Part shown: in pieces, positions 1 through 64,000 of the stretch
Layout of the letters: each line of letters begins with the position of its first letter
Numbering within the stretch: position 1 is the stretch's first letter
Origin: Trebouxia sp. TZW2008
Lineage: Eukaryota > Chlorophyta > Trebouxiophyceae > Trebouxiales > Trebouxiaceae
Reading direction: 5' to 3'
Length of the DNA stretch: 64,000 nt
NCBI GenBank assembly: GCA_002118135.1
Contig: BDIU01000232.1
Location: forward strand, 1 to 64,000
The notes under the pieces: model-generated
Databases searched by the model: none
Told to the model about the DNA's origin: nothing
What the model saw: only the letters and a program-made list of their open reading frames with translations
Position numbers and translations under genes: made by a program

Positions 1-3000
1 GAGGAGGAGAGGGTGGGCTGGGTGGCGGTGGGGGCGGGGGCGGGGGCCTTGGAGGAGGTGACGCAGGTGGGGATGGTGGGGGAGGAGAGGGTGGGCTCGG
101 TGGCGGTGGAGACGGGGCCCTTGGAGGAGGTGATGCAGGTGGAGATGGTGGGGGAGGGGAGGGTGGGTTGGGTGGTGGTGGGGATGGAGGCTTTGGTGGG
201 GGTGAAGAGGGTGGAGGGCTGGGTGGCGGGGAGCTTGGTGGAGGAGGTGGCGGTGGTGGGGGGGGTGGAGGAGGTGAGGACGAGGGAGGTGGTGAGGGTG
301 GAGGGGGTGAAGACGGGCAGAGATTGCATGTCCTTTGACAGTTTGCCCTGCAGAGCAATAGCAGTGAGCGCTGCAGCAGAGCTTGCTTGTCATCTTTGAA
401 GCTAGCCTGGTACTGCTGTACGCATTGCACTCAGGTTGCTACAAGCTGCTTCTGTAAGACATCATGCATGACCTGCATGCTGGTGCAGGTGCTTGCTCAG
501 CGTCATATGCAACTTAACAGCGACATGACATACCTGAGATAGTCCCCAACACCTCCTGGCAGTGTGCAGTCGTTCTCGACTGTCTTGCAAATGCTGCTGC
601 AGTCGCTTGCTATGTCCACACATGTCCCTGCAGATGGTCCTGGAGCAGTAGCTGCTCCTGGTGACTGCTGCATGCCTGGTGTTGACATAGCCATGCCAGG
701 AGAGCTGAGTGGCAATGGTGAAGTCACAAAACTGCCAGGTGAAATGCTACCACTGCTTGCAGGCACTTCAGGAGACTGTATAGGTGACGCTTCACTCCCT
801 GGCTGGGCAGTGAGCGTGGGTGGAAGAGGGAGTGGTGAGCTTGGCGTATCAGAAATGCGAATGCCGGTGAATGGTGAAGGTGAGGCGAGCGGTGATGGAG
901 ACCCTGGACTGCCTGGTGCAGGTGATTGCCCTGTGCTGGGACTGACTTGCACTGGTGATGAGATGGATGCAGGAGAGCTTGGAGCTGAGACAGTCTGGGT
1001 TGGTGACTCTGCAAGCAACAGAATGGTGATGTCACCAGTAAACATAGTGCAAGTGATTGCATCATCCGCAGGGCTTCCAAAAGTTTTCATCAGTGCTAGG
1101 CATTGCAAATGCAATAGGCACGTATCTGGTTATTACCTGGGGAGGTGTTGCTTGGTGAAGGACTGTTTGATATGCTGCCGTGTGCAGGTGACTGTTCTGT
1201 AGGGGTAGGCGTGGGTGAAGCCACCTGCGCTGGTGATGTGACAGGTCTCGCAGGAGAGCTTGCTGATGGAGATGATGGCCCTGCAGCAACTCCAACATGC
1301 AGTAAGGCCACAGAACGCTTGAGCTTGCATTCACTAGGAGCAAAGCTTGTTGTTGCAGACCGATGTTTGGCTTTGCCATGACATCTTATACCTGAGGTGC
1401 TGCTGGGTGAAGGAATGCTTGGCGTGCTGCCTTGTATGGGTGACTGCTGTGTAGGTGAGACAACCTGTCCTGGTGGTGACACTGGTGCTGCAGGAGGGCT
1501 TGCTGATGGAGATGACAGCCCTGCAGTAACCCCAGCATACAGTTACACTGCAGAGCATGCAAACTAGCACTGGCTATGAGCCAATCAGCAAGAGCAAGAG
1601 TTGCAGGTTTGCAGTGCATACACTTTACATTTTGGCCTTGCTATGGCAATACCTGGTGAGGTGCTGCTGGGTGAAGGAATGCTTGGTGTGCTGCCTTGCG
1701 CAGGAGACTGTGCTGTAGGCGAATTAACCTGTGCCGGTGATGTGACTGGTGCTGCAGGAGAGCTTGCTGGTGAAAATGTCAGCCCTGCAACATGCCACAT
1801 AGTGAGGTTGCAGAGCATCTAAGCTTGTACACAGTAAGAGCAAAACAGTAGAACTTGTTGCTGCAGGCTTGTTACTTTGGCGGCTCGACTGCAACACATA
1901 CCTGGGGAGGTGCTGCTAGGTGAAGGTCTGCTTGGTGTGCTGCCTTGTACAGGTGACTGCTGTGTGGGTGAAATGACCTGCACTGGTGATGTGACTGGTG
2001 CTGCAGGAGAGCTTGCTGATGGAGATGGCAGCCCTGCAACCACACCAGCATGTTGTGAGACTGCAGAGCATTCAAACTTGTAAGTTGGTAGAGGAAAGAT
2101 GGCAAACTTGTTGCTGCATACTTGCAGTGCAATCGAATGATGTCTTGCCCTGGCTGTGGTAAGTAAATACCTGGTGGATTGTTGACTGGAGAGCTGCCTG
2201 ATGTCGCAATGCCTGGAGAGAGGTTGCCTCCTTGACCAGGGGAAGTCCCTCTTGGTGAGCTGCTTGACCGAATGTAAGGTGAAGGTGAAGATGTGCCTGG
2301 ACTGATTGGTGCTGGTGTCGATAATGCAGTACTTGATCCGGTCACTGTGCCTGTTGCAGGTGCGCCGTTGCCAGATGAAGTGCCTGGAGTAGAGCCTGTA
2401 GGCAACTCAGCCAAAGGTGTGGGTGTAGGTGACTGTGCTGGTGCATTGCTTGCAGGTGATGTTCCAGTAGGGACAGTTGGAGGTGCAGAGGGGTTAGTTG
2501 GACTTAATGTGCTGCCTGTAGACTGTGCTGGACTGCTTGAAGGGCTTAGAAATCCAGGAGCAGACGGCACAGGCACAGGGGAAGGGCTTTCAGGAGAGGG
2601 TGATGGACTTTGGAGTGTGTTGGGTCCTGATGTATTAGCTGGTGACGGTGACCCAGGCAAGGTTGAGCCAGATGGTGATAGGCTTGGGTTGTTGCCGGTG
2701 TCAGGTGCTGTCACAGGCACAGCCCCAGGATTGCCACCAGATGGGGAGGCGAGTGATGTTGGTGAGTTGTTGAGACCTGGACATCTGCCACAAGTGATCT
2801 GGCAATAGCCCTGGGGCAAGCCAGGTGCAGGATTGGTGAAGAGGGGGCTGGTACAGTTGCCAAGCTGCTTCTGCATCAGCAAAGACCACCCCCAGCTCAG
2901 CAATGCAGTGTGCTCAAGGTTGAAAAGGCAGCGTGCATACCTTGGTTTGCACTTGCAGGCGCAGCATAAGGGGCTTTAAGAGCATAAAACTGCTGCAGTG

Positions 3001-3586
3001 CATGATGTGCTTGCAGGCGGTAAGCTGCTGCATATGCCGCTTGACATACCTGTTGAGAGCAGTTGTACGGACTTCCAGGCGGTGCCACGTCAATGCAGCT
3101 GTTGCCAGGGGGTGAAATGCCAGACAAGCTTGTGGGACTAGCTGGGGAAGACCCTGATATGCTTGGTCCAGGTGAAGGTGGCAGAGCACTTGTTATTGTG
3201 CCAATGGGGTAGACAGGGCAAAGACCACAGTATAGCTTGCAGCCAGCTCTGCAAAGTCATCAGTGTCAGTCACAATGATACACTGCAGCCTCTAGTACTG
3301 AGTCAGCAGTTGACACAGGTTGCTTTGTTTGCATAGCACAGTACAGCAAAGTCGCTTACAACACACAGATTGCTCACCTCAGATAGTTCCCAATGGGAGT
3401 CTGTAATGAACAGGCATCTTCAACATTGCCAGGCGTTCGATTGCAGACTGCCTCACAGTCGGGGGCAGTGTTGGTGCAGCTGTAAGGGCCTGGTGCCACT
3501 GGTGCAGCTTCTGGAGCAGTTTCAGGTGCTACTTGAGCAGATACTGAGACGACCAGAAAGAATAGCGCCAGCCAGACGGTGCACAT
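1..3586 (-). CDS. Secreted Ser/Pro-rich cell-wall glycoprotein with Cys-rich domains (3' end outside window)
   Basis: Hydroxyproline-rich-type extracellular matrix protein, unnamed. Exons in transcript order: 3586-3378, 3248-3050, 2870-2171, 2033-1902, 1784-1653, 1520-1392, 1280-1137, 1008-534, 347-<1; every phase closes. The start at 3586 gives a signal peptide (MCTVWLALFFLVVSVSAQ). Three Cys-rich modules follow, each split by an intron, and each ends in a CxxxCxxC motif: CKLYCGLC, CQITCGRC and CQRTCNLC. This resembles the ShKT/SXC type of extracellular domain. Between the modules are long SPSP/STPG spacers, and the last exon is a pure SPPPPPSPP polyproline tract running off the left edge. 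SP and PP runs are the classic arabinosylation sites of algal wall proteins (family knowledge). Four spacer exons are tandem copies of one another. Exon calls are firm; the function is inferred from composition. Confidence 0.8.
1137..2033 (-). repeat. Tandem array of four duplicated, symmetrical phase-1 exons
   Basis: Exons 2033-1902 (132 bp), 1784-1653 (132 bp), 1520-1392 (129 bp) and 1280-1137 (144 bp) are copies of one exon plus about 110-130 bp of intron. Each opens after TGCAG with GGCTG or GGCCAT and closes at CCAG or TCAG followed by GTA. All encode the same SPxxPVTSP...QGSTPSxPSPSSTS motif. All begin and end in phase 1, so any number can be included or skipped without shifting the frame. 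Confidence 0.85.
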
Positions 3587-4961
3587 GTCCGTTATTGTCT
3601 GCAAGCACCTGTACAACCAACAAAATGTCAACAGGCACATCGACTGATTGAATTTGCGGGCTCGAGAGGCTAAAACGCGTGGCACATACCACAGAGTCGT
3701 GCCTTGTGCGCACTAACGCGATGGCAGATTTCCGGCAGCAAAGGTGCGCAGCTACAAGTCGAAGATGTCTGCTATGCTTGCGCTGAAAGCATGGATGTCA
3801 AAACGCCCTGCGCAGCATACTGTGGAAGCTTGACCGGGAGGCGGTAAAATAGCAGGCTGCAGCAAGCAGAGCGGAATCGTGGCTGTGACGAGCGCCGGCA
3901 GTTTGGTCCGCGTTCACCAGCAAGCAGAGCACAGAGCAGAAGCTGTTGGCTCTTCTTGCGCTTGCTGTATAGCGCTTGGACTCAACAGGCCCGCCAAACA
4001 GGTCCAGCCTGGCAGTCGACCCCGTTGCGGTGCAGTAGGCGATGCTCGATAGTGCAACCTCAAGCTGGAGAACGCAACACCTGCTTGAGGATGCGTATTG
4101 CAGACGCCGGCAAGGAGCAGGACGGGAGTGTACAGGGTCTGCGCGCTTCAAGAGTCCAAATAGGCTGTGAAAAGCTGAGCACAGCATGCTGATCACGTCA
4201 TTGGCATGGCTCAAAAACTTGAATTGCTGCAATCAGAGGATCTCAGAAGGTGCCGGAAGGTGCAGCTACGGCTTGCATGTCACCTTTGGGTCTCGGTCAC
4301 TGTCGGATGCGCTGCAGCTAGCTCTGCATGACATGACCCGCCCTTGAAATTGTTCAACACAGCTGCAATTCCGTGATGAGCCTGAACTTCAAGGTAGCGC
4401 GTAGTGCTGTGCTGCGTAATGACGGGGTGACAAATCATACAAAGAAGATTGTGACATGCCAACAATGTGAACAGTTGTGGTGAGTCACAGAGTTGCCTGA
4501 CCTGAACGCACTGCAGAAACTGTGTGCTGATGTACATGAAAGAGTCATCAGCTTCAATTCAGCAAAGGAATGTTAGCAGACCTTCCTGGACCTTGTCAAG
4601 GATGTTGAGAGCCACAGACGCAACAGGTATCCAATGTCATGTAGCCCTTCCTTCATGTTCATCATGTTTGCGCAGGATGCTGTTGCTGAAATGACAAGGA
4701 AACCAAGCAGGAACACAAAGGCAAACAATTCAGTTTGAACAGTAAGCATCCAAGGCCACTAGCTGATTCGACGGCATCTGATCAGTGTCGAGGCTTTTTG
4801 CCTGCTGCCGGTCAGTGCCATTGAGCTGTGTTGTCAAGAGTTGCAGATGAAATTGTCGAGCTGCTATGGAGGCAGCAGAAACCCCATGTCATTCTTCAAC
4901 TTCAGTGGCATGGGCGCCACAACGCTGATGGACTGCTTGTCAGTACAAGGGCTTTACTATT
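3587..4961. other. Intergenic, no supported gene
   Basis: This stretch lies upstream of the glycoprotein start (3586, minus) and downstream of the AP2 stop (4962, minus). Only short ORFs without recognisable motifs or splice context are present, such as a 144-residue minus frame at 3798-4232. The glycoprotein promoter should lie in its left part. Confidence 0.5.
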
Positions 4962-7900: not shown

Positions 7901-10900
7901 TAGCACAAGCTGGGTAAGTTGTAAGTTGTAAGTTTGGGAGATTGTGATTGCAGCAAACCAGACAGCAAGCCAGACAGGAAAGAGCTTGATAAAAAAGAAT
8001 GAATGCCTGACCTGCTGTTTTGCTTTGCTTTGGCGGGTTTTAGTGCTAGATGGCGACAGAAGGCCAAGAAATTCTGAAGGGAATGCCGTTTCAGAGCTTC
8101 TTTGTCATACTCAGCTTCGGGAAAATTGACTGGCGCCCGGCCCTGCATATGTTCACTACCAACTACAAAACTGATTGCCCTGCGTATATTCATGGCAGGT
8201 GATAGAACTGTTTGCCCTGCATATGTTCACTGCATGTTGTATGAATGATCAGCAGAGGATCGCCACTTGCAAATGCAATGGGACAAAGCCTTGTCCGTCA
8301 AATCAGGAGGCCCTGAGATTGCGCTGTTATCACTCAGATGTCCAGCGACATGAGTGGCAAACAAGACAGGATGCTGAGCATTGCCATGCTTGATGCATGA
8401 CACAATGCGCAGCCTTGCCGCAAGTGAAGCCTTGCATCAGGGCCTGATCATTCGCAAGAATGTACATTCGTAAAGTTGAACAAGAAAGACACCGAAACAC
8501 ATGGATGACAACTTACAAAAAAGATGATTTCACTGTATATCCCATACTTGGCAGAACTGTCAAACTTGTTTGCCTCCTTTGTATGCTGCCCTGTGTGAAT
8601 TATCTGTTAGACTGATTCCAGGTGGCAAGCCAGATTGGGTAACTGCCAATGCACAGGCATGTTGAGGTCATCAGCAGACATCCAGCCAAGCTTGCTGCAA
8701 GGCAACAGCAAATGACGGGATGCCCACCTCAAGTATCAAAGCGCTGTCATACATCTGGGCAGCTTGCTCCATTGAATGAAAAGCTCCAAGGCGAGTCCCT
8801 ACATCTTTTCCTGCAAATGCGTACCTGGCTATGTATCTGCCATTCATGCCTGTTACACCAATATACCTGCAGATGTCAGAAGGAACAAATAAACAACACT
8901 AAAGCAGTCCAAAAGGCGCAAAGAAGGCACATAGAGTTTAGCGGTTTCGTAAAACATGCAATGGTGGCCACAACTTGACTTTGGAAGTTGATGGCTGGCA
9001 GGCAGAAACCTTGCAAGCATCAGAAGGCTCTAGCAAGCTTGCAGCATGTAGCACTTGTCACAGATCAGCGCACAGAAGCAAAAGTTGTGAATCCGCTGGG
9101 TTCAATCAACGCAATCACTGCTGGCTATCACCAGGTCACAATGAGGCAGGGCAACCCTGATTGGGGAGGACGCACAGAAGCACACGTTGGCAGGCAGCAC
9201 CAGTGGAGCAAAGACAACCTGCTTGCTCACATGTGTACAAATACAATATCAAGCATATCAATAGCAGCATGCTCATATGCGTTGTGCGCAAGCAGCAGGA
9301 TACTGCTTTGTGTAGTGTCACAGTGTTCAGACCCACAGTGAATAGACAGCCAGATATCAGGCTGTGTCTTGGTCGGCAAAACTTGCTTTGAGATGCCTCA
9401 AAATGAGAAAGCTTCTGCTGTCTTTACTCTTTGTCTTTTTGCCATGACAGTAATCTCTTGATATTAGGACACTTGAGATATAAGGACGTTCTCAATGTAA
9501 GGATGATGCAGCTGGCAACCAAGCACTGCACTCTGACTACATTGGTGCTTCTGAGTAAGGACAATTTCATGTTAGGAAATTCTTCTTGGTGACGAATGCA
9601 GTCTTTATATGAAAAGACTACTGTACATTGGTCTGGTGTCTTGATACGCAAGCAATACACGCATTTGTCAGGCGCTCACTTGCATACTCGCTGTCGCGAT
9701 TGACGTGATGATTTGCTTATCTGTCTGGCAGAGGCTTTGCTTGCCTCAGCTAGATCCTTGAGTGTATCATGCTTCATGATGTCTGCTCTGTCGTACGTAC
9801 CCTCAGGAAGATTTACAGGGTGACCTGTCTGCATGCAACAACCCTCAACCATTTGACATTGGGGGTGTCATGCTTCATCATGCCTGCTGTGTCATACGTA
9901 TCCCTGTGGAACTTTGAAGGGCGACATAATGCCATACTTCACGTTGCAAAATAATAAATAGTAATGATAATCATTAAATCTTTCTGCAGGTGTGTGGCCC
10001 AAATCCTGTCTCGCCAGGCAGGCTTGTTTTGAGCGTCTCTGTAAGGATGTCTAGTATTCAACTTTTGGAACTCAGACAACTCTACATCACAATATAAGCT
10101 GAGCAAAATGCAGTGACTCACTCACCTCATAGATGGATGCATGGTCATATGCTTTTGCTGCTTCTTCTTCAGTGTAGTAAGAGCCAAAGGACATATGAAA
10201 GCCCTCGCGATTCACTGAGGCTCGCCACCGGTTGTGGCTGCATCCAACACCCTTGAACCTGCATACGGGCACCTTGACATTGTTGGAATGATGTTGAAAG
10301 CAGATCAGTGACTGTTTACATGCAGAAGTTGACTACAAGCACACGACAACATGCATGAGCAGCAATCATTCCATTTAAAGCTGTCATTGAGACAGATTGC
10401 ATCAGCTGAGAACAGCACACAATGCCATTGTGCAGCAGAACGATGTCTTGTAAACTTGAGCCGGCTTGCTTTGTTTGGCTGAACAGCATGTGAATGACTG
10501 TGCGCACGTCAAAGCTCACAACAGGCACGCAAAAGACATGCCTGAGCAGCCAACAGACCATTTGCAGCTGTCATTAATAGATTGCGTAAGCTGAAGATAG
10601 CGCATAATGCATGCAGGGCTGTGGTGCGGTCTTCACCTGGAGGTCTTTCCTGGAGACCTGTGAGTGTTGTTCTGCGTCCCCGCAATCTGCCGTTTGTGCT
10701 GCACAAAGGCCGCAAAATCCTCAAACTGCTTGATCTGGTCAAGCTCATACTCAGATTCCAGGAAGTTCCTGGTTTGTTTGCCCTGCAAACACAGTGCAGG
10801 CCTTTGGTGCCAGCCAGGAGCAGCGACTGAGCATCAATGTGAGCTTGCAAGTCATGCCTACCTTGTTGCACATGCCAAGATAAGTTGGCTGCAATAGGCG

Positions 10901-12264: not shown

Positions 12265-15200
12265 ATGCATATGGTGTCGGAGCACTGCTTGACTTTCAAT
12301 AGCTCGGATGGCCCAGCAAATGAAGTTGTGCATAGTACTGCTGCAGAGGAAGCTGCTCAAAAGATCAGCTCAGATGTGCCAAAACTGCAGTGCTGCTTGA
12401 GTGTTCATCGTGCCCTGGAAGATCACCGCCAGATGGCGACGGGTTTGACGGTCGCGGCCCTGCAACAACTTGTTGACGCAGACCCGCCCAGTTACATCAG
12501 CAGATCTGGTGGCACTCGCACTGTGAGAGCGGTATTCGATAGCTGCAAGGCTGCACGACTAACAGATGCTCAGGCTCCAACAGATGTCTTGGCTTTAGAG
12601 GCTGTCTTCGACGTTGCTCTGCACAACGGGTTAGGCTGTTTGATTTTGGACTATGTGCACGAAGTTTGCATGAGCCGCACGCTCGTGTCGAGCGACCCCG
12701 TCGATGCTGCTATGCTGGATGGCAGTACTGTACAGCGCTGGTGTCAATCCGCCCTGCACAGAAGCAAAGCCAAGGTGCTGGAGCAGCTCAACAACGTCAG
12801 TCTGGAACGTCTCCATGGTTCAGCTGTTCTGCAGCAAGAGAGCGGCTGCATCAATGCCTTGCTACTGGTCGTCAAAGCCCTTGCTTCTGAAGACTCAAAC
12901 AGGTCAGAATTCAGCCAAAAACGCCTGATCGCTCTCTACACTTGGCTTCATCTGCTAGTCAAATTCAGTCAAAATGCCTTCCTTGCTGGCGCGTTGCAGA
13001 ACCTCACCGTGGTGGTGATGCTTGTCAGCAGCTTGATACTAAGTCACAACCGTGTGTTTTGCAGTGCCAGCATGCTTGCCGAGGCACAGCGCCTGAAGCA
13101 CCTGCTACAAGTAGGTGGCAGACTGCATGATGCATGCCAGGCATCATGGTACAGACGTTGAGTGCATCCAAGACAAATTGCCTAGTATCATCTGAGCATA
13201 TCCATTTGCTCTAAGTATGCTGTTTGACGCATGTCATGCAGCACAGAGCATGGAATCACAATGCAGTCAGATGTGCATAGACAGGAGTGTATGCATACAA
13301 AGGTTCAAGAGAGCATGCAGGTGCTTTAGCACACTTTGCACAGACAGGTAGTATCTTTGCATGCAAACAGTGGTGACAGTCTGCAGGTGCTGGAGTGGTG
13401 CAGCACTCAGAAGCTGCTGCCAAAGGCAGGCCGCTTCAGCTCCTTGGCTGATTGGAGGACAGCTGTCAACAAGCGCCGTGCAGTACAGCAGCCGCGGCCA
13501 TTCCTGGAAGACTTGCTGCAGGGCGTCGCACCCACACACGGACCTCAGGTCGGTGATCTGCTTGCAGCAGACATGTATGGTTGCAGCTTCTTGTGTCAAA
13601 CTTGTCCAGCAAGCATACGCTTGTTGATGCAGTCTGTACTGCTCTTCAAGTTGCTTGAGCCAAAGAAGCAAAAGTAAGCAGCTTTTGCATTGGCAACACG
13701 ATGAAGCTGACAGCAAATCCAGGACATGACCATGTGTCTGTGATGATGACCAGCGCATATGCCACTTCTTGTGTGAGTGCTAGGACCAGCTCACATAAGC
13801 AAGCTCAAGTTGATCCTGCTTTTGCAAAGCCCTCCTGGGGCTGAAAGCAGGTCCACGACATGGTCAGAACATAAAACCCCACATTTTGACTGTGGTGTGA
13901 TAGAGCAGGAGTCAAGCAGTCATACATACCCGCCAGACAGCTTGTCAGCATTTGCCCAGACGCTGTTCCTTCAAGGCAAAACTGACGCAACAGCCTGGCA
14001 TAGCAAGCTGGCCCTATTGCTGTACTGCCTGCTGGATAGACAAGGAGGAGCTGCAGGGCTCAGACTGGACTTGGCCTCCTTCAGGTCGGTTTCCAAGTCA
14101 CCACCTGCCTTACTGGAATTGCATTGCTTGGCATGCATGTCTTCATGCTGCGGCGTGCTAGTTACAGTTACTCAGTGGGATCTGGAGTGCTTACAGGGTA
14201 CTAGTGCTTGTGTCAGTGATCATCATGATGTCCTGACTTCACGCAAAACAAGACTTGTATCCTAGGCTGATGGTCAGAAATAGGAGTTACTCAGCACTGC
14301 AAACGTACAGCGACCTCTGGTGTCCCTGTGAAAACTACATATGCACTGACCGTTCTGACCAATTCGTTGACCACAGGATGCCTCCAATTACTTACTTGCT
14401 TCCAGATAAAATTACAGTACAAACACTGTTGGAAGCTGAAAGTGGACTGATGAAATTCACCTTCCTGATATAAGTGACAGCAGCACCAACTGTGTATTGC
14501 AGGAAAACATTTGACTTGACAAGGGCTGAGGTGGAAGAGTGGCACTGCCAGTTCCTGTTAGATGACGCTTCAGTGCAGTCAGCCCAGTCAGCCGCCAGCA
14601 GTCTTCAGGCTGCCTGCACAATTCTGCCAGGTATGTTTTCAAGCTTAAACATTGTGCAGTCAGAGGATGGTCAATGCTTTGGATTCTGTTGTTCTACTCG
14701 TCAAGCTGCCGCCATCACAGTTCCTCTTGGATGACGCTTCACTTTAGTCAGACCAGCCGGCAGCCTTTATGCTGCCTGCACAATACCGCCAGATATGTTT
14801 TGATGCTTCTGCCTTGTGAATCAGAGGGTGTCTGATGCATTGACTCCTCTGGCAGTACCTGTCGTGCTGCCATCATCACAGTTCCTCCTGGATGGCGCTT
14901 CATTCAATTCAGCCCAGTCAGCCACCAACGGCTTTCAGGCTGCCTGCACAATGCTGCCAGGTGAGCTGCATCAGCTGAGCACAACCGTACAGTAAACTCT
15001 CGTCGTAAGGACACTCAATGTAAGGACAATCTTAACATAAGGACAACGCCATTGGCAACCAGTCACTGCATTCTGACTGCAGTGCTCCCTCTGAGTACAG
15101 ACAATTCAATGTTGAAACAAATTTTTTGGTAACAAAAGCAGTTGTTACAAAGAGTTTTGCTGTGTCTGTATGCTTGCATACAGGCCTTTCTATTTGTCCA

Positions 15201-18200
15201 CAAGCTGCAAGCAAAGCCTGACATCATGTAGTCACAGCTGGCTGATGTGCCCAAAATTCTGTGGCGTTGGTGTTTAAGCTGCCAACACCACACACTCCAT
15301 TAAAAGGCAAAGCAAATGTTGGCTTATGAACAGCAGCTTGCACAGCTTGCAATGGTGGTTATGTTTAGCTATCTTTGGCACAGACTGCCCTGCCGTGACT
15401 GTAAGTGAAGACTTTGGGGCCGTGCTTTTTGAGGCTGTGGCCCCAGGCAACTTAAACCTCACACTGCATGCAGGGGTAGCAAGCAGATGTAGGGCACCAT
15501 CTCGACACTCAATGCCCTTCAAGTTTGTGCAAGCCTTGGCTGCGCTGAGTCAGCCACATGCTGCGCTGGCAGTGCTTCACGCCAAAGGTTGTATCAGTGA
15601 TGCAGACCATGGCAGGGATCTCAAAGTTCCCCAGGCAACTCAAACCTTGCACTGCATGTAGGGGTAGCAAGCAGATGTAGGGGTGCATCTCAGACCCCAA
15701 CCCCTTTCAAGTTTGTGCAAGCCTTGGCTGCATTGGGTCAGCCACATGCTGCGCTGGCAGTGCTTCAAGCCAGAGGCTATGTCAGTCATGCAGACCATGT
15801 GTCATCAGAGGAAGCCTTTGAAGAAGCTCAGACAGGCCTCAACATCAGGCTGCAGTGTGGGGTCTTTACAGAAGCCATTTCAGAGGTGTGTTCTCATTGT
15901 TCCAAAGCTGCTGAAGGGCTGGACATGGTGCTCAAATTTTGGACAATAATGCTTCTGTTTGAGGCAAAATTGCTCAGCTGCTGCTAGGAGCCTTTGTGGT
16001 TCTGCTTCAGAAATCACGTTGCATAACACTGGCCTGATTACAAAATAGGACTTCAGGTCAAATGTAATCGTGGACGTCTTTCTGCAATCTGCCTGTAGTG
16101 GTCCCTGTGAGTCTGGACAAGTGAATATAAGCACGACGTCTTGGGTATAACGGCAGTTGCTACGAAAAGATGTCCACTGCACGTGTCGTGCAACAAGTAC
16201 ATGTGTGTCAGACCATTGATGTTGCATTCAGATGAGGACATATACTGGGCGTCTAGCTTCAGATGTCAAAGCAGACAGGACAGCAGTTCTGATGACTCAG
16301 CTGTTGGACTGGGCTGTGAGCACAAGGCAGGTGCATGCCATCATTGGGCTGCCTCTGAACAGCTTAGAAGAGCAGGTATGCAGCCCTGGCATTTGCATAG
16401 TCAATCACACATGCCCCTACCAGGAACCCCTGTCCCATTCTGAGCCTCATGCTGGCTCCGCAAATTTCTGTTTGCATGTTGTGCATGAATGTTCATGCTG
16501 CCGATGTACCGCGCAATGCACATGGTAGCTGTTGCTGGAAATAGGATTTTGCAAGTACGCCGTCGATTTTGCAAGTACGCTGTCATTGGGCTGCCTCTGA
16601 ACGGCTTGGAAGAGCAGGTATGCAGCCCTGAAATACATCCAATCACGAACCCCACTCCAAGCTGCGATTGCATCCATACCCTCCTGAGACCTGTGCTGGC
16701 TTTGCACTTCTGGGCTTTGCGAGTGGCTATCCTGGCGTGCAAGCCATGCATGTTGCAGTTCATGCTGCAAAGACGCCTCTGGTGTGCTGTCTGAAGCAAA
16801 CATGCTGCCTGCTTCTTTGACAGCAGAAGTCTTTACATGGCATAGACAGTCCTTTCGGCAAAGTGCATGCTGCTGCTTCACTGAGCTTTGCAGCTCAAAC
16901 CTGAGGCACGATTCATGCACCTGCCAGTGCTTAGAAAATCAACAACAAGAAAATCTGACATTTCACGTGAGCTTGAGAATCTTTCATGCTGCTGTAGATC
17001 CTGGTGCATTGGTTCCAGCAGCAGGCACAGAGGGGTAGACACGTGGCCTTCATGCTGCCCATGTACTATCTGCAGCTTGGCCGTCTTGCAGAGGCTCTAC
17101 ATGCACATACAACTGTCAAGGATAGCTTTGCTGGACCTCCAGGTTTGACCATTTGTCCTACATGGGCTGCCCTAGTGACTCAGCCAGCTGCAATATTGAG
17201 TCGTTTCTACTTGGAGGTATCACTGCAGTGAGCATACAGTCATGTGTTCCAGATTGCATTGTCCTTACAACAAGAATGTCTGTATCCTATACCTTCGTAC
17301 ATCAAGGTATACAGACAAGTGCTATGACATTGTGTCAATTGACGACTGTGACAAGGCTGAGAGGACAGCTGAAATGTATGCAACTTCATGCTTGCTGTCT
17401 CTCAGGCCGAGGTTTGTTATTTGAGCAAGCAATGCACGGAAAATGTGGCAGCAAATGTCACACACTGCGCCGAACAAGCTGACAGCTTACCATGTAGCAA
17501 TGTGATCTCAACCTGTAATCATAAAAACATTACAGGGCATGAAGGGTATGCTAAGTATCAACTTGTAGTGTAGGACATGCAGAGCAGCAGCAGCAGCAAC
17601 AGCAGCAGTTGGAAGGGCTGTTAGCAGCTGCAGCCAAGATGCTGCCTGCCCCTCAGCACAGCCTGGCAATAGCCCTGTGTCAGCCTAGCAATTCTGCCTC
17701 ATTGCTCGTCTGTCCGCAACAATGCACCTTGTGTAGCAGATGAAGAGCAGCCCTTTGCCCTTGCTTTTGCCCTGTTCCTTGTGTCTGTCAGTCGATGGTG
17801 ACAGCTGCTGAGTACGCTCCTTGCTGTCTAGGAAGTGAAGAGCAGCAGCAGCAACAACAGCAACTTGAAGGGTTGCTAGCAGCTGCAGCCAAGATACTAC
17901 CTGCTCCTCAGCAGGGCCTGGCAATAGCCCCAAGTCAGCCTGGTGGCCCTGCCTTTGCCCTCACCACTGCCTCTGCTGCTGGCCAGGTCAGTTTCTGTTC
18001 CATCCTCTGCTGTGCATTTCAAGCAAATTGATGCATTGCAATTTGCACATGCAATGCAAGCCATTTTTGTGTATTGCAAGTGGCTCAGTTCTTATTGTAA
18101 GCAAGCTGGTATGTGTCACAAATAGTGTTGGCTATGTTGCTATGAGATGATGCTGAATGACATCAGCTTCTGTAGAGGTCCATGTCACGCGCATTGTGGG

Positions 18201-21852: not shown

Positions 21853-24800
21853 TTAATCTGGTTGACAGAAACCATGCACAGTGCAGACCCTAGCACGGCA
21901 GGAAACGCTGTCTATGCCGCACTCTGCATTTGAGGCACAGCTAGCATCATCTGCACGGTCTGGAACATGGCAAAGAGACAGAGTTCGAACATGCTTTGTT
22001 CCAAAGGCTGGACAAACACGTTGCATCAGAGCGTCAGGTATTTGCTGTGCCACATCTACATCATGACCAGGCTGTGGCAAAGCAGCTGACGAACCAGGAA
22101 CAGACTGTTGCGAGTCCTCATTGCCAACCTGCACTGCCAGTTCAAAGGCATCACTGTCTGTTTGACCATAGTAAGGGTGCGACTTGCGCTTTTTCCGCTT
22201 GCTGTTTGGAGTCTTTTGGACATCAGGCTTGGCATCTTGCTGCTGACACTGCTGTGGCTGCTGTTGCTCCACATCAGGCTGCACTCTACCACTGATGGCT
22301 ATCTCAGGGCTGAGGGCACCTTTCTCAGGGCTGAGGGCATCTTTTTCAGGGCTGACAGCACCCTTCTCAGGGCTAAGGGCAGATTTCTCAGGGCTGACGG
22401 CATCTTTCTCAGGCCTGAGGGCATCTGTCTCAGGGCTGGTGTACTCAGCTTGTGTTGCTTTGTAGTGATCAATGAAAGCTTCCACTGAAGCTTCGGCTTC
22501 AGTGCTCTTGCTGTCTGCCTTGGGCCCTGAGAAGTGTTTTGTCATTGCCTCAAGCAGCTGCCACACTTTCCTGCACATAGCAGATACTCCATCAATCACT
22601 TGTAGGCTAGCAGGCAGAAGACACAGTCTGCTGTCAGCATGACAACATTTGGTGCTGTTGCACTAACGGCAATGTACCAGAAGGCAATGGATCATGTAAG
22701 ACAGATGCAGCGTGGGCAGGATAAAGCTTCTCCTGTTCTGCGCTCACAGTTTTGAGCTGTGGCATGCATGTTGTAGCCATTGTGTAGATACACAAATTAA
22801 GCGCAGAGCAGTGTCTGACTGGCAAGCAGTGGTTGTGCATCAGTGGGAGCCACAGTGTCATGTCAGCTGAGATAGAACAGTTGGCCAACTTGATTGAGGT
22901 AGGGAGCTAGCAGCCAATGATTATCTGGCATAGCACAAGTCATTCAATGACTGACCAGAGAATTGTGCAGGTGCAGCAGTGGGACTCACGGTGTTGTGTG
23001 AGCTGAAATTGGAACATGTGGTCTGCTGGGTTGAACAGATGGCTTGCTTGGTTCAGGCAAGGTGCTAGCAGGGGACTGTACTGGCCGCAGCATGCCTTGC
23101 AATTCGGCTCTGGCTGGGCTTGGGTGCTGCAGCTGATATGAGACTGGAAACATATGGCCCTCAGTAGTAAAGATGTAATTCTTGCCCTGCAGGCCGGCAG
23201 GGTCAAAATGTAAGATGTCAGGAAGGGTGGAACAGGGTCAAAAAGCAAGCTGTTGGAGATGCAATATGGTCACCAAAAGAATGGCACTGGTCGCAGCATG
23301 CCTTGCAATTTGGCTTTGGCCGAGCTTCGATGCTGCAGCTGATATGAGACTGGAAACAGATGGCCCTCAGAAGCGAAGATGTAGTTCTTGCCCTGCAAAG
23401 CAACCGGAGAACCTGTCAGTTTGCAAGATGAATTGCATGGTCAACAGTATTCAACTGCTGCGCTGCAGGTCCCTGTTCCAGTTCCAAACATTGCGCAGGT
23501 AAAACGTAGTTCTTGCCCGGCAAAGCGTACTGGAGGAGCATCAAAGTGTCAGCTCTAAAACATACACTATCAAGGAGTGTACTGCTATGCTACAGGTGGC
23601 TCATCACAATAAAGTCAAAGCAAGTCGATTGGGGCTATTGATCTGCACAAAAGAGCGCAATAAAGAATCCATTGGCACAAAATTGCATGCCAAAATCAGC
23701 TGCGCAGGGCAGACTTGTCAGATAGAATCACAAGGGTTGAAACCGCATTGCCATAGAAGTCTTGGGCTCTGAGCAATACACATAGTTCTGATGGTAAAAG
23801 CCAGCCTGGCTAGACAGGAGATGGGCCACACACACTCAGCTCCTATATTAGCACACGTATTTTTCATGGTCTATGACTTCATGATAAGTGTGAATAAGCA
23901 CCTGGAGAAAGGAGTCATCAAACAGCAGGTACAGGTACTTGCAAGCCTCAGCAAGGAAGTAGGAGGGCATGTGGTCCTCCAGCTGCCCTGTGTGCACGCT
24001 TTGCATGCTGGCCCAGCCGCCCTCCACCCGGTTCAACTTGTTCAAGGAGGTGATCATGGCTGCTCCTGCGTCCAGGTACTTTGGATCCTGTGTGGCCTGC
24101 AACATGGGTTCAACCTGAGCATTGTCTGTTCAGAAAGCATGCTTTGCATGCTGGCCCAGCTGCCCTCCACCCGGTTCAATTTGTACAAGGATTTGATCAT
24201 AGCTGCCCCTGCAGCCCCTGCACCCAAGTACTTTGGGTCTTGTGCAGCCTGCAACATGGATTGAGTCCTAGCATTATTCTTGTACCAATCATGCTTTGCA
24301 TGCTGGCCCATCCGCCTTCGACCCGGTTCAATATGTTCAAGGCATTGATCATAGCTGCCCCTGCATCCAAATACTTTGGGTCCTGTGTAGCCTGTAACAC
24401 AATTTGAACTTGATCAACTTGTGAACTTTATTAAGTGAGAGATGCTGTTGATGTATGCATGCTCTGCATGCTGGGTGTGCACTCATGTTGAAGCATGCAG
24501 GAAATGAGTCGTGGCTGCCTCTGACTTGAAGTACGATGGGTTGTGTGTGGCCTGCATCATGATCTCAAGTCTTAGCATTGTCTGTTTGAAAGCATGCTTT
24601 GCATGCTGACCCAGCTGCCCTCCACCCAGTTCAATTTGTCCAAGGAATAGATCATAGCTGTGCCTGCCTCCAAGTACTTCGGGTCCTGTGGATTCTGCAA
24701 CGTGAGTCAAGTGAGCATCTCCTTCTGAATACCCATGCCTTGCATGCTGACCCAGCCGCTCTGCACCCAATTCAAAGCAGTTTGGGAGTCTGCTTATAGC

Positions 24801-27800
24801 TGCCCATGGCTCCAGGTACCTGGCGGCCTGTGTGGCCGGCATTACATGATGTTCGGCATGCAGACACCAAACCCAAGGAAGCGACTGGTCAGAGCAATAT
24901 CAAGGCGTTGCATCATGACATTCATTACCAAAATATACTACTGCTCAACAAATAGAGTTTAACACAAATGGTATCATGTGCGGGACAACGTTTAGCAGAA
25001 CCACTTGCTCAAAAGCGCACCTGATACAGCAAGAAAGTGCTCTCCATGAGCTCAGGTCTCAGAGGATACTGATGCTGATTGGAGTGCAGCTGCCTGTGGG
25101 CATACATGTAGCGCTCTGGCAGCGCTCCAAAGCTCTTCCACAGGGCAAAGTAGTGCCAGTAAGACTCCTGAGCAGCCAGCACATCCCCTGCCAGCACCTG
25201 CATACCTGTATGGGCTGTGTCAGTGAGGAGTCATGCACCCAGCAGGGTCATGGGATTCCATGAGATCCCACTAGCAACCATGCAGAATTATGATGAATTG
25301 GAAACTTTGAAATCATTTTATCATTTTACTGCATACGAGCCTGCCCAGTTTCACTCTGACAGGAAAATGCCTTGGACAATATACATAGCCATTATGTGCA
25401 TGGATGTCCTGTTATAACAAGCTGTTACAATACGACGCCCCAACATTTGAGTCAAGGGCATCTGAGCCTGACTTCGGTCAGATCTCCATGCAACCCAGTA
25501 TGTATGTCCTGTTTCTAAAACAACTAGAGCAACACAGGCAATACAGGTTCCTCACAAAGCAGTATCTAGAGCATTACAGGTAGTGAGTACTTGAATGACT
25601 GCAGCTAGACCCATCACCTGGCCAGAAGGCTTGCAGCGACTGAAACTGCTGATGGACAGAGCGACCATTCAGTATGTCTGCGTCGTCATACCAAGGGCCT
25701 GATCTGTAGTGCTGCATCACTGCCCTGTATGCATCCTGGAAAACCTCCCAGTACTCTTCATGACCTAAACAAATCCACGGGTTGATGCACCAACTGAAGG
25801 AGCAGCTGCAGGTTGTCAAAGGTGTGATTTGACTCTACTTGGAGACAAAGCTCTTGCTGTCATGACTTGACAAGTATGACATGAAGGTTCTGCGCGTTGA
25901 AAGCACAACAGTAACAACGTAAGGGAGTCAAGCATGATGACAAGGATTACCTCCTGACTGCAAGTCTGTCAATGAAATTCACTTTCTATAGAGGGCTGCT
26001 GAAATCACTATGCTCAATGCTCTTTGCATGTGCTTGCTGGGAATCCATCAACGCAGCTGTGGTGTTGTCCACATCAACCCTCAAGTATGCCCTGGAAGGC
26101 TCAGGCATGGACGTGCGTAAGCGGATGCAGTGCTGACAGTGTTGCAGATAGTACTGCAGACAGTAGTGCCGACATCCAAGCAGACAGTGGTGCAAATGAA
26201 CAAGCAGACAACGGTGCACACAAAAGTGCAGACAGAACTACAGAAAGTAGTGCGTACAGCGTGGAACAGGTATCAGAGTCACTCTCCAACATGCCAAAGA
26301 CAAATTAGAACAGGGACTCATGGGAGAGTCTGCACCTGCCCCTGTGCCACCCACCCGGTCATTTCAGTGCACTTGGCGCATGTCAATGAACACAGGCACT
26401 AGTGCAAAGAGTGTAAAACAGGTTTGGGAGTCAGTGTCTGACTTGCCAAAGAGAACATAGGCCTTCAGCAGGTACTCGTAGAATGAGTCTGCACCCGCCC
26501 CTGTGCCACCCACTCGGTCGTTCCAGTGTACATGATACATATCGATAGAAGTACCCACAAGGTTCAAGGGGGACCGCATGCTCCACAGCCTTGCCAGCGC
26601 TTTTGTTGCTGCCACTTCATAAGTGTGATCACCTGCACACAATGCAGCTAGAAAGAATTGAACATGTGGAAACTCCTCGACAGGGCCTTGAATGCGACCC
26701 CATAACTGCAACCACCTGCAGAGGATGTGCATATGTGCAGTGTCCCGGGACATGCTCTCCATACAATCCTTGACGTGCTGAAAACAATTTGATGAGAGTA
26801 AACGCAAGCCTGATCACAGGTTACTCATGCTAGCACAGCTGCTGGCTGTTTGTGGCCGAAAGCCTATTTGCCAGGGCTGATTGATGTTCTGAGCATCCCA
26901 ATAAAGAAGCTGGGCTTGGCAGAAATCTTGAAACCATTTGCAAGAGCTGCAAGGAGTCTGCAATTGTGCGGACATGTTGTGCGCAGACAAGAGGTCAAAA
27001 TGTACAGTGTCAACGCTTGGTAGTTTGAAGCCCGTACCTGTCAGTCTGGACAAGAGGCCCATTTCAAGAGTGAGGGAGCCAACAGCAGCAGTGTTAGTTT
27101 CTTGAATGGCCCACTCCTCAGCACCAACACCATGCCGCAAATTGACCCAGGCAAAAGGCATATCTGTATGCACCACAGTCAGCTTCACTTGCCTAAATAA
27201 GCTACATCAGTCACTTTACACCAAATTTGAAGGCATGTCTGCATCCATTGCAGCAGACTTTATTTGACTCAGTACATGAGACCAGTCATTACACACCACA
27301 AAAGATTGTTGTTGCACAAGAAGATATCTTTGCGCTGCCGTATGTTTTCAGAGAGATTGAAAATGCTGACAGGTATAAGGTGTCTGGTGGGTTCAGCATG
27401 CATACTCAGTCCTGTAATCAGTCCTTGCGAACGCACGCAGTTGCCTGTCTGTAATGCGGCATGATTTGCTGGATGCTTTTGTTCTGACAGCAGAGCTGCA
27501 TGATGGCTGTACAGATTGTAGAAACTGCTGCGCGTCACTGTGAAAGCTTCTGCATTCAATGCATGTAATGTTGATTTCATTGACAGTGTTGGCAGTTTTA
27601 CTCTGGCTATTCCAATCAGGGAAACAGATAATTGAGATCACCTGATCTGAAGGCAGCCATCAACCTGTCACCTAAGTCAGTCGCAGGAACAAGAAGCTCG
27701 CCATTGTAGGGCTGTTGCATCAGCCCCAGGCTTGTGTCTGCTGCCAGCAAGTGGGCTGACAGAAGCCCTCCAAGCAGCCTGATGTTTGCCTCAAAGACAT

Positions 27801-38300: not shown

Positions 38301-41300
38301 AAAAGCCTGCAGAGGTCGTTCACAGCTCAGACTCGCAGCAAAGTAGTGTCCAGCGACAGTGTATTGATGTGTCAGGGCAACAAGAGCCTGTTTCAGCAAG
38401 CATTATGACGGCAGGAAGTGCAGGCCAGTCTTTTGCACCTCAGTGCAGTGACATGTCAGCACAAGCTTCGCAACACCCTGTGTCAGATCGCTTGATGGTG
38501 GCAGGCAATGCAGCTCAGTCTGGAGAGCAGATCATGCTTTGGCAGAGGCTGGCCGAGTGCTTGCAAGATGACAAGACTGCATCAAAGCTGGCTCTGCTGA
38601 CACTTACGCTTCTGGCTCGCATGTGAGTGTCTGACTAACCAGGATTGTTGAGATGTGCAGCACTTGCGCTCAAACACCAGAGCAAGTTGTCTTGCGTTCT
38701 AAAATTATTCCTGACTTCTATTGCCAGGATGCTATGCATTTGGCCTGATATGCAAGGCTTATACCCAAAGTGTTGACCGCGCTGTGCAGTGGCTGGAGCA
38801 ATTCAGCTCATACACTCAATTGCATTTGTTTGTGTTATGCATTCAGGGCATTGCCCAAGTATAAAGTCTCGTCTGCCAGTGCATTTGCAGTCGCTGCCAT
38901 TTGCAGTGAGTGCCGCATGAAGTGTTTGCTTGAACATTCACCGGGCTCGGTCACTGCAGCTGATATAGCTCTATCAAACAGTGACTGACTCTGCAGGCGG
39001 GCTTTGTGGAATCTGACAAAGAAGCGTCCCAGCACTGCTCCTGTGGGCAATGATGCTTTGATGGCAGCTATGCGGCAGCTGGGTACTGAAAGGGGAGAAG
39101 ATTTGGCTGTTTGGAAGTTCATGTCAGCAGGTGACCTTTTCGACTTCCAGTCTTTGAAAATTTGTCAATCATTATTTTGTTCAAAATGGAATCTCCAATG
39201 AAGAAAATCCACTGAAACCCTCTCCCGCATCGGATGCTTCCTTACCCCTGTTGCCCGTACCCTCAAATCTGACACCCTTTTCTGCTCTTGTGAATGAGGT
39301 CTTCCATGCGTCTAGTGAAGCCACACCGCACTGTGAGTGCTGAGTTAGGTACCACTCTCCCTGTGCCTTCTTGCAGCTGTGCAAGATTTGCTGCTTGTGT
39401 GCATGCAAGTTTGAGATTGTGTGCAAGAGAATGTACAATTGCAGCCAAAGCACACTTTCCAACTGGTCATGAGCATCAGCCAATGATGCGTGACAACATC
39501 TGTTGCAAGCATGTGCATTGCGGCCATGTATGCTTGGCATTGCAGCAAGCTGTGTTGCTGTTTCCAGGCATCATAGCTGCATTTGGTTGTTTTTGCAAAA
39601 GGCTGCATGTCCATGTGCAGGCAAGCAACGGGCTGAGTTCAAGGCCACAGCTGCATATGCTTGGCATTGCAGCAAACTGTGTGGACATGTGCAGGCAAGC
39701 AAAGGGGTTTTCACAAGGCCATAGCTGCAAATGCTTGGCATGGCAGTAAAGTGTATGGATATGTGCAGGCAAGCAACAGGCTGAGGTCAAGGCCACAGCT
39801 GCATATGCTTGGCATTGCAGCAAACTGTGTGGACATGTGCAGGCAAGCAAAGGGGTTGTTACAAGGCCACAGCTGCATATGCTTGGCATGGCAGTAAACT
39901 GTATGGATATGTGCAGGCAAGCAACGGGCTGAGTTCAAGGTCAGAGAAAGTGACTCGCCAGAAGCAACCCTGGAGCAATGGCAAGGCATTTTGAGAATAC
40001 TGCAGGACAACAGCAGTGCCTTTCTGTATCATTTAGAGAACCACTACTGCTTGGTGTTTGCTGCAAGATATTGGCACACAGATGCAGGTCAGACCTCTCA
40101 CATAAACAGTCCAGCCTTTGCTGACATTCTTATACCAATGCAACTACTGGCTGCTACTGACACATCCTTCAGCTATGCCTCGATGTACCGTTTGGAGAAC
40201 CACTACTGCTCAATGGTTGCTGCACATGTTGGCATACAGATGCAGGTCAGACTTCTCACATGATCAGTCCAGCCCTGTGCTGACATTCTTGTACCATTGC
40301 ATCTGCTGGCTGCTACCGATACTTGTGTGAGTTATGAGGATTTGTCATGAGCATTGGATCAGCAACTCAGCTCGTTTCTGCAAGATGCAGGTGAGACCTC
40401 TGACATGAACAGCCTAGCCTTGTGCTGATTTTCTCGTACCACTGCAAGTGCTGGCTGCTACTGATACTTTATTCACAACTTTCAGCATTTGTCGTGATCA
40501 TTGGATTAGCAACAGAGCTCTTTGCTGCATGAGCTCTTTGCTGCCCAAGCTTGGCGCACACATGCAGGTCAGACTTCTGACCACAAACGCCCAGTCTTGT
40601 GCTGACATGCTTGTACTACTGCAAGTGCTGGCTGATGCTGATACCCGTTTCACTTTCAGCACTTGTCAAAGTCATAGAATCAACAGAGCTCTTTGCTGCT
40701 CGATTTGTGTACACAGATGCAGCTCAGACTTCTAACATCAATGGATCCAGCCCTGTGCTGACATTTTTGTATCACTGCAAGTGCTGGCTGCTGCGTTACT
40801 TCTTTAGCTATGAGTTGGCCTGTTGATAAGATCAGCAACAAAGCTCTTCGCTGGACTGTTGCCATGTAGCAGCAGGTCCATCACTTGCATACGCAATAGA
40901 GTACACACGGTGCACGAGAACAGCATTCTAGGCAAGGGCACAGCTTGCAGTTCTCTGATTCCTATTGCTCCTGTACACGTTTCTGATGGCTTCTTGCTGC
41001 GTTCGTTCGTTCGTTCGCTCGTTCGTTTGTTCGTTCATTCATTCATTCATTTCCGTTGTCTGATCTTCATTGCTCATGTGTATGCTTCTGCTGGCTGCCT
41101 GCCGTCATCACTGACTACCCAACTTACAGTAACTTCTCAAGATTGTTTGCTTCTGTTCTGTTCAGGTTACAGTGGCTGCAAGCTTGTGCGACAGCTTCTA
41201 GTGGCAAGACCTGGACAAAAGCCCTGTGCATGGGTCAGTTTTGAGAGTCTACGCAGCAGCTTGCTCAGTTGGCATGGCTACGCCCTGATGGCAGTTGCAC

Positions 41301-43943: not shown

Positions 43944-44030
43944 GCACATCAAAGGCGACTGCAAATCCTCACGCCACATGCGGGTTGCAAGGCTAAAAGG
44001 CACAAAGGAGACTGAGACTTTGCAATGCAT

Positions 44031-44093: not shown

Positions 44094-44349
44094 AGTGGTT
44101 TCAGAGCTGAGTCTATGCGCAAGAAGGTCGTATGGAAATCACACGAGTGGCGTTGGTTGCAGAGCCTATATGCCGGTTCGTAACTCCTGAAGGACGTTAC
44201 AACCTACAACCTAAACTGGTATTGTAACGCACGCAGTCGTTACATACCTCCCTTCCCTGAAATAGTCATAATGTCATATTGTTGAAGCGCTTTCACACTT
44301 GTGATTAAATGGCATCAAAGTGACCAGAAGTCTACTGCAGGTCCTGACT

Positions 44350-46009: not shown

Positions 46010-46640
46010 GCCTTTCTGCCATGCATGGCTGGATGTGCCTCAGTACGTTTTTGAAGCGTTTGCCAACAAAGAATTCCGCCTGCAGGCATTTGCTACAGAT
46101 GATGGCCCCTTGTTGCAGCTGGCACGCCAGTGCCGCTGGAGGCAACGCCAGCGCTGCAAGTGAGCTTCACCATCTGTGTGCTTGCTGCTGGCACCCCACA
46201 CAATCATCGCAGCTGTCATTCAATGATAGCAGTAGTCACTTACAGCAGCAATAACAGCAGTGACACATGCATAACATCAGTTGATGATAGCAGCAACTAG
46301 TTTTGCATGCACTTTGAGCATTGCAAGTCTGCCCTTCTACAACTATGCCAAGCTTTATGTTGCAGCTATAGTTCGCTCTGCTGTGACATTGGCTGGAGAT
46401 TGCTTGCTGCTTACAGCTTCATCTAACGCATGTCTCTGGCATAGATGGCTTGCTGTCTTTTGCAGGCATAAGATCAAGCTGAGGCATGGCTGCAATCACG
46501 TGAAGTGTTGGTGTGGGGCTGATTTCTGCTATCGGTGTGGTGATTCTTGTGCAGGCATATGATTGAGCTGAGTCATGGCTGCAATCACATGACGTGTCGC
46601 TGCGGGGCTGACTTCTGCTACCAGTGTGGTGTGGAGTTCC
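46010..46640 (+). pseudogene. RBR-type E3 ligase fragment with duplicated RING2 exon
   Basis: One exon ending at 46159 (frame LLQLARQCRWRQRQRC) joins in phase 2 to 46466 onward, which encodes HKIKLRHGCNHVKCWCGADF then CYRCG. This is the IBR/RING2-type GCNHxxCxCGxxFCYxCG core. A second copy starts at 46555 (HMIELSHGCNHMTCRCGADF then CYQCG), offset 89 bp. No RING1 is visible upstream and no continuing exon downstream, so this looks like a remnant, though more of the gene could be unrecognised. Confidence 0.55.
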
Positions 46641-47060
46641 TTTGGTTTGACGTAATTGTTGTTTATTGTGCCGCACTTGCTGTCTTAGGAGCCATGGAAT
46701 GGCAAAACAAGATGGTAACCAAGTTTCTTGCTCTTCATCTGCAAAATGATCAAGCAGAACCTTGACTGTCATGATGTTTCTGTAACGTCAGGGCATTGCG
46801 AGAGCGTTAGTCCTCAGAGAAGGTGGTATAGAAATCACACCGTTGTGTTTGATAAGATTGTGATGGCGTCTGGCACAGGCGACGGTTTGTCTCCCATGCA
46901 CGCACTAGTCAATGTTCAGAGGACATAGGTATGATGTCATATGCCTTGATAGCTGTTTACGTTACAGTTTCTAGCTTTACTCATGAAGGCCATGCTGCAG
47001 AGCAAGTGAGTCTGCGACAGTTTGGCCCAAAACCATGAAGCATTGTAACAGACTTTACAA
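46641..47060. other. Intergenic, nothing recognised
   Basis: Short ORFs only, between the RBR fragment and the stop of the minus-strand coiled-coil gene. Confidence 0.4.
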
Positions 47061-50907: not shown

Positions 50908-50970
50908 GCGCAGAGCACAATGGAGAGCCGCTGTGGCTTTCTGTTGTACCTTGTCTAGCTCCCACTACAG

Positions 50971-59130: not shown

Positions 59131-63845
<4,715 letters not shown>

Positions 63846-63879
63846 AGCCTCCAACAAAGCAGCTTAGCATGTTTCTAGA

Positions 63880-63970
63880 GCCTATCAAAACTGTTCTTGA
63901 CTATGGCAACAAGCATGCGGGCTTTGCTGAGGCATTGCAGCCTTGCTCAATCTCTGACAAAGCATGTTTG
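63880..63970 (+). repeat. Ghost copy of the phytepsin 3' end
   Basis: GTTCTTGACTATGGCAACAA, GGGCTTTGCTGAGGCA and TCTGACAAAGCATGTTTGCA repeat the last codons and 3' flank of the terminal exon (63790-63875) just beyond the stop. The copied frame carries stops. Confidence 0.75.
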
Positions 63971-64000
63971 CATGTCAATTGAGCCTCCTGGCCCAGCGGT

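Follow-up and report, generated by a model that had tools for sequence, protein, structure and literature searches.

In the first 64 kb of contig C223 from an assembly of 68.5 Mb in 527 contigs (this 64-kb stretch is referred to below as the window), whose sequence marks it as nuclear and as that of a Trebouxia-like lichen alga, we found that exons stand beside partial, decaying copies of one of their own edges, here called ghosts. These ghosts are probably the remains of a heavy, ageing load of small tandem duplications (about 80-260 bp) that were placed close to randomly in intron-rich genes. When the direct strand was aligned to itself with a fixed search space and offsets of 40-1200 bp, 24 local direct-repeat clusters were obtained in the window. 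Order-1 shuffled sequence (529 kb) gave none under these settings, so that the copies are not a product of chance. A further 81 clusters were detected in 190 kb of 19 other nuclear loci of this genome, giving 105 clusters in a whole sample of 254 kb (20 sequences). Clusters were present in 18 of the 20 sequences, with a range of 0 to 9 per locus and two loci without any, which bears out the suggestion of an earlier note on this DNA that the copies extend beyond the window. Since cluster density was similar in the window (3.75 per 10 kb) and in the other loci (4.3 per 10 kb), the window is ordinary for its genome, not special. Two more loci, L007 (C18:30001-33491) and L009 (C27:30001-36927), have a guanine-cytosine (GC) fraction of 0.41-0.42 and dense short GGGGTA/TACCCC palindromic repeats; they were judged plastid-like from composition and repeats, no gene search being made, and were dropped with their 5 clusters, which reduced a set of 110 clusters (66 at exon edges) to 105.

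Exons were labelled with a small hidden Markov gene finder trained on the window and other loci of the genome, which settled on donors resembling CAG|GTRAG and acceptors of the form TGCAG|G; its errors (some exon starts misplaced, some exons missed, some ghosts called exons) affect all labels. In the EDEM, TatD and ELYS-like genes, most predicted exons match Trebouxia orthologues when compared by eye. For the predicted TatD protein, identity is 79% with a protein of Trebouxia sp. C0004 and 76% with one of C0009; for predicted EDEM, it is 68-72% with four proteins of Trebouxia. The ELYS-domain (HOS1-like) protein had three matches, every one from Trebouxia (51-55% identity). Of the ten clusters in these three orthologue-anchored genes, eight are exon-edge ghosts; the other two are a coding minisatellite and a pair lying wholly in intron. 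Each ghosted segment is present once in the orthologue proteins used for comparison (four for EDEM, three for the ELYS-like protein, two for TatD), in line with ghosts decaying beside one intact exon, as the earlier note had described. The clearest case is an EDEM exon with five partial copies of its start:

23902..24105, minus strand: intact EDEM exon, residues 400-467 of orthologue P0121
24126..24863, minus strand: array of five partial ghosts of the start of exon 23902-24105, upstream of it in the gene

The five ghosts lie at about 24126-24266, 24290-24400, 24498-24560, 24581-24697 and 24722-24863, and self-alignment of the array gave offsets of 143, 295, 454, 598 and 739.

Across the sample, 52 of 540 exons had at least 15 nt copied nearby, and noncoding copies at 80% identity or more summed to 4.0% of coding length. 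By the same identity threshold, 4.1% of predicted coding bases had a noncoding copy within 5 kb, a figure that exons missed by the gene finder would inflate. Noncoding exon copies have been put at ~2% in human, 0.08% in D. melanogaster and 0.06% in C. elegans by a different method (PMC9013439), so the density here looks far above that of fly or worm, a rough comparison given the difference in methods.

Tandem geometry of the copies

The offset between copies has a median of 157 bp (5th-95th percentile 79-264 bp), and the duplicated unit is, as we read these alignments, about as long as the offset, its intron half having decayed. Three features indicate that the ghosts are decayed tandem units, as had been proposed. 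Acceptor-edge ghosts lie upstream of the intact exon in 17 of 19 cases and donor-edge ghosts lie downstream in 7 of 8, so that the side expected of a tandem unit was seen in 24 of 27 pairs (from 29 listed pairs, two of other shape being left out); among the three exceptions, EDEM 23080/23286 is due to a wrong choice of intact copy. For the breakpoints and the flanking homology we used two-copy pairs of simple shape in which one copy was clearly intact. The exon part reaches the ghost-facing junction in 33 of 41 blocks. Past the visible block, homology (weaker than within it) was significant at p<0.05 on the intron side for 13 of 32 pairs, compared to 2 of 32 on the exon side (Wilcoxon p=0.0003). 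Nearly all listed pairs (27/29) are copies across one junction rather than whole exons with both splice sites; exceptions of the whole-exon type are the wall-glycoprotein units described below, nearly so EDEM 23070-23398, and a triplet in another contig.

The lengths of the spacers raised a different account, in which a nearby exon edge is copied into an intron break by non-tandem templated insertion and a true spacer is left between the copies. Such insertion would fit the sharp ends of the blocks, a visible block whose median coverage of the offset is only 0.57 (0.48 for identities of 85% or above), and the 19 of 32 pairs with no significant intron-side homology. It is weakened by the spacer homology in the other 13 pairs; the ghosts mostly keep to the tandem side rule, and only two inverted local pairs were found outside palindromes, two complex arrays and the plastid-like loci. 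We therefore regard insertion as very improbable.

Placement relative to exon borders

Predicted internal exons have a median length of 125 bp and predicted introns of 270 bp, and 46% of units placed at random with the observed lengths would span a junction, or 50% after simple selection filters. The load of small tandem duplications that we favour would have arisen by an ordinary route, most likely staggered-break fill-in with end joining, or replication slippage. Units falling inside exons or spanning whole introns would mostly have been purged by selection, while a unit across one exon edge would leave an intact exon and a harmless copy in the adjoining intron. The intron halves would then drift on both copies and soon become unrecognisable, whereas the exon half would drift on one copy only, and because of this difference old duplications would appear as exon edges. 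An additional border bias may exist on top of random placement.

Junction-crossing clusters number 13 of 24 in the window, compared to the 12.1 expected from random shifts of the pairs. The earlier note had held that the copies nearly always span a splice junction and had proposed a mutational process biased to exon borders. Neither holds as stated: by the gene models, 4 of the remaining window clusters are coding and 7 are in introns or unassigned (some of these 7 may be exon-derived, as the gene finder misses exons), and the window is at chance, while an excess in the whole sample depends on the model. Comparison of border with random placement, which the note had called for, thus gives no excess in the window and an excess in the whole sample. 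In the set before exclusion of the plastid-like loci, 66 of 110 clusters were at edges, compared to 53.0 expected from random shifting of the pairs (P=0.0035). Because this test uses visible blocks and counts ghosts that are called as exons, a forward simulation was added, in which random tandem duplications were made in the sampled sequences, passed through simple selection filters and neutral decay, and scored with the same gene finder and BLAST.

The simulation yields several points that weigh against nearly random placement as the whole explanation. In the whole sample, 64 of 105 clusters (0.61) cross a junction, above all 22 simulation runs (0.34-0.51; p=0.04 against the highest share). 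The exon-derived share, that is exon-derived clusters over exon-derived plus noncoding ones, is 70/93 (0.753) in the whole sample, above the simulated 0.51-0.66. Block length and coverage resemble the data in two settings, whose shares are 0.66 (p=0.06) and 0.51, the latter well below the observed value, for which p is already 6e-5 at 0.55. Observed block coverage (median 0.57) is below that of 15 of 18 printed runs (0.60-0.99; the other three gave 0.46-0.55). The intron mutation rates and ages in the simulation are assumed rather than measured, and the exons are predictions rather than RNA-based. In favor of random placement plus decay, the simulated exon-derived share was above half in all six settings scored, and the window alone has a share of 14/21 (0.667). 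Overall, geometry, selection and decay account for much of the edge pattern, and the window needs nothing further; in the whole sample, a junction-crossing excess of model-dependent size and significance remains, for which border bias is possible, not established.

Such a bias would arise, for instance, if breaks or nicks were concentrated at splice junctions during transcription and the edge were duplicated there. The whole-sample count stands above the random-placement null and all decay models, and acceptor edges outnumber donor edges by 19 to 8 (p=0.05), which we treat as a lead only. This direction is the opposite of what would be expected from competition by an upstream ghost acceptor. 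However, the window equals chance, the exon-side breakpoints are indistinguishable from uniform (40 of 41 values, Kolmogorov-Smirnov p=0.11), 21 of the 105 clusters are classed as noncoding and 20 as coding, and the size of the excess depends on the assumed decay. We consider a border-biased process unlikely. A shade less likely still is a past episode of short tandem duplication that was truly concentrated at exon-intron borders, perhaps at acceptors, and that later ceased or slowed down and left ghosts at ~1 exon in ten as raw material for new introns and repeat exons.

A subset of high identity (85% or more) was also considered as a set of young duplications that would speak for border bias. 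Its enrichment stands (22 of 34 at edges compared to 13.1 expected; 22 of 33 after retraining). The argument from youth was set aside, because short blocks pass the score threshold only if they are near identical, and several of them have strongly diverged intron sides.

Decay, age and possible function of the ghosts

In 45 edge pairs with one copy called coding, mismatches occurred at 0.110, 0.104 and 0.195 of sites at codon positions 1, 2 and 3, respectively, and at 0.173 of intron sites. This pattern would follow from one copy drifting while the other is constrained, since positions 1 and 2 then change on the ghost only, and position 3 and introns on both copies. Against this reading of the codon pattern, 16 edge pairs with both copies called coding gave similar values (0.153, 0.122 and 0.203), as did the class of coding clusters (0.166, 0.124 and 0.234), so that neither class serves as a positive control for constrained copies. 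Splice dinucleotides of the ghosts are intact in 66 of 78 cases, with four further donors in alignment gaps set aside. Selection on ghost acceptors appeared strong when judged by block-average divergence (41 of 46 intact compared to 32.7 expected), and this signal was gone when one drifting copy was assumed (36.7 expected, p=0.14); for donors, 25 of 32 are intact and 25.5 are expected with one drifting copy. As a class, the ghosts look, from these comparisons, to be decaying about neutrally.

The suggestion that ghosts feed alternative exons therefore found no sign of support for the class, neither in the codon mismatches nor in the near-neutral survival of splice dinucleotides. Ghosts that serve as alternative exons, poison exons or decoy splice sites under selection would be expected to retain their splice sites, which most do, and open frames are seen in the glycoprotein units and in a second EDEM C-terminal exon. 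However, the retention is near the neutral expectation for acceptors and donors alike, mismatches at codon positions 1 and 2 at about half the rate of position 3 are explained by one drifting copy, and the orthologue proteins have one copy. We rate function for the ghosts as very improbable, slightly more so than templated insertion.

No cluster (0/105) combined at least 92% identity with a block covering 80% of the offset; five reached 92%, with short blocks only. In a simulation with a constant birth rate, 78 of 355 clusters were young and full-length (Fisher p=3.5e-10 for the difference), and the present tense in which the earlier note spoke of a duplicating habit is not borne out. The duplications either belong to an earlier time or include young repeats that were collapsed in the assembly, and the lack of fresh copies makes this a testable question. 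That the local copies are themselves an artefact of assembly is scarcely credible. The absence of near-identical full-length copies, which collapse of young repeats could cause, is in its favor, yet divergence between the copies is 5-30%, indels are present as well, and duplicated reads could not produce this; on this ground we reject assembly error as their source. The sampled contigs reach 490 kb, and the sampled sequence has no N.

Features of individual genes and comparison with known systems

The genes named in the earlier note as carrying copies largely proved to do so: clusters were found in the ELYS/HOS1-like, EDEM, TatD, BIVM-like, phytepsin and wall glycoprotein genes and at the RBR exon. 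Gene names were assigned by domain for EDEM (GH47), ELYS, phytepsin (Asp and SapB) and IBR, and by the Trebouxia protein matches for TatD. The name BIVM-like is that of the earlier note, and Pfam gave no supporting match for it; the AP2 domain scored 22.3 bits, below the cut-off of 33.3. The ELYS/HOS1-like gene has four clusters:

14501..14630, plus strand: intact exon whose 3' end is copied, supported by three Trebouxia orthologues
14879..14962, plus strand: ghost of exon end and donor, downstream of that intact exon
15441..15611, plus strand: ghost, in a unit of 188 bp, of intron end, acceptor and exon start; the intact exon, 15662-15885, lies downstream
16341..16388, plus strand: intact exon end and donor (35 nt of exon, 13 nt of intron)
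16583..16630, plus strand: ghost of exon end and donor 16341-16388, offset 242
17562..17686, plus strand: ghost of an exon start, its intact counterpart being 17831-17986 by the orthologues

The ghost at 14879-14962 was called an exon by the gene finder, although the orthologues hold one copy, and exons were called at both 17562-17686 and 17831-17986. At 16583-16630, diverged homology extends on the intron side. EDEM has, with the array given above, three clusters and one coding minisatellite, and TatD has one exon-edge cluster and one intron-only cluster:

23070..23216, minus strand: copy of the EDEM C-terminal exon carrying TTEGH, shared with all four Trebouxia orthologues
23279..23398, minus strand: second EDEM C-terminal exon copy, open, nearly whole, with ASEGH, upstream of 23070-23216 in the gene
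26235..26375, minus strand: EDEM ghost of exon end and donor of exon 26443-26632 (intact copy 26388-26534)
33469..33616, minus strand: three short TatD ghosts of exon end and donor, downstream of intact exon 33637-33774

Both copies of the C-terminal exon of EDEM have an AG acceptor. By its match to the orthologues, 23070-23216 is likely the intact copy, and 23279-23398 is the best candidate for an alternative exon among the copies of the window. The minisatellite, at 22302-22438, is a 21-bp in-frame coding repeat in the C-terminal tail, where alignment to the orthologues is poor. EDEM and TatD (window 21700-34800) may adjoin in Trebouxia sp. C0009 too (locus tags ABBQ38_013560 and ABBQ38_013562).

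Copies in the wall glycoprotein had been taken for true coding exons, and the array does look coding by frame, lengths and splice sites:

1137..2033, minus strand: wall-glycoprotein array of four tandem units of exon plus intron, acceptor spacing 240-264 bp
1902-2033, 1653-1784, 1392-1520 and 1137-1280, minus strand: its four exons, of 132, 132, 129 and 144 nt

All four lengths are multiples of 3, and the exons share one open phase and are rich in Pro, Ser and Thr. Because each is flanked by an AG acceptor and a GT donor (scored with the trained matrices) and all are open in one phase, the array is credible as a coding expansion, which would make it the coding exception among the ghosts. The remaining clusters assigned to genes are as follows:

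9758..9925, minus strand: local copy pair in the AP2-gene region, offset 101, noncoding by the gene finder
39559..39946, plus strand: BIVM-like array, period about 76/148, on the acceptor side of predicted exon 39917-40087
40011..40853, plus strand: BIVM-like array, period about 159, on the donor side of the same exon
46456..46631, plus strand: near head-to-tail 89-bp tandem of acceptor and exon start, the single RBR/IBR cluster
62078..62144, plus strand: phytepsin ghost of acceptor and start of exon 62291-62506
62666..62741, plus strand: phytepsin ghost of acceptor and start of saposin exon 62834-63022
63890..63943, plus strand: phytepsin ghost of the terminal exon end, past the predicted stop

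The AP2-region pair reads as part of the AP2 protein by eye only. Of the two BIVM-like arrays, 39559-39946 touched a predicted exon in the first gene model and is noncoding in the retrained one; phytepsin has three clusters in all. Outside the window, a profile search found one exon in three tandem copies in a GH47 paralogue on contig C57. Profile searches for aspartic proteases (7 matches) and TCP1 (63 matches) gave no clear tandem copy by eye, short partial ghosts being invisible to such searches.

There is ample documentation of exons duplicated in tandem, including unannotated copies within introns (PMC9013439). The Trebouxia copies resemble that system in that the exon is copied in tandem beside its source and many copies are intronic and unannotated; they differ in being algal, mostly partial, across one junction, and apparently much denser. 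In potato, duplication across an intron-exon boundary is reported to have created a new intron (PMC4974935). Acceptor-edge copies share this anatomy, a duplication across the border with inherited splice signals; unlike the potato intron, which is spliced, the Trebouxia ghosts are known from DNA and look neutral. Exonize (PMC12343006) reports more genes with partial, inter-boundary and intronic events than with full-exon ones, and fewer events in 'lower eukaryotes'; our ghosts resemble its inter-boundary class, exon duplicates that straddle exon and intron, degenerate exons included. Small direct duplications in mammalian cells have been attributed to staggered-break repair (PMC8355091), a candidate mechanism here, since the Trebouxia copies are likewise direct, adjacent and short; they differ in that the duplications described there are defined as insertions of <100 bp, and the Trebouxia breakpoints are too old to show microhomology. 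Among the matches listed in the open-access literature, to which our search was confined (subscription papers were outside its scope), we found no account of partial exon-edge duplication at such density in Trebouxia or any other alga.

Should this density apply to the whole genome, there would be ~50x more exon-derived ghosts per coding base than in fly or worm, a rough figure given the different methods, and such a genome would be a natural system for studying how introns are gained, how exons are duplicated and what becomes of partial duplicates. Ab initio gene prediction can include ghost exons in genomes of this kind, as happened here in EDEM and the ELYS-like gene.

Several minor observations were made. 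The predicted gene at 44115-46765 fuses the C-terminal domain of an Fe/Mn superoxide dismutase with the IBR (RBR) domain and is probably two genes merged by the gene finder. Complex arrays that mix direct and inverted copies occur at L010:3121-4325 and L019:6079-6503 and differ from the simple tandem pairs. At 56596-56779, the window has an imperfect 184-bp palindrome (88%), and others are present in loci such as L003, L017, L020 and L021. Positions 1-310 of the window carry G-rich minisatellites with periods of 9-72 bp that encode a predicted Gly-rich stretch, and a strong GC skew extends across the first 4 kb.

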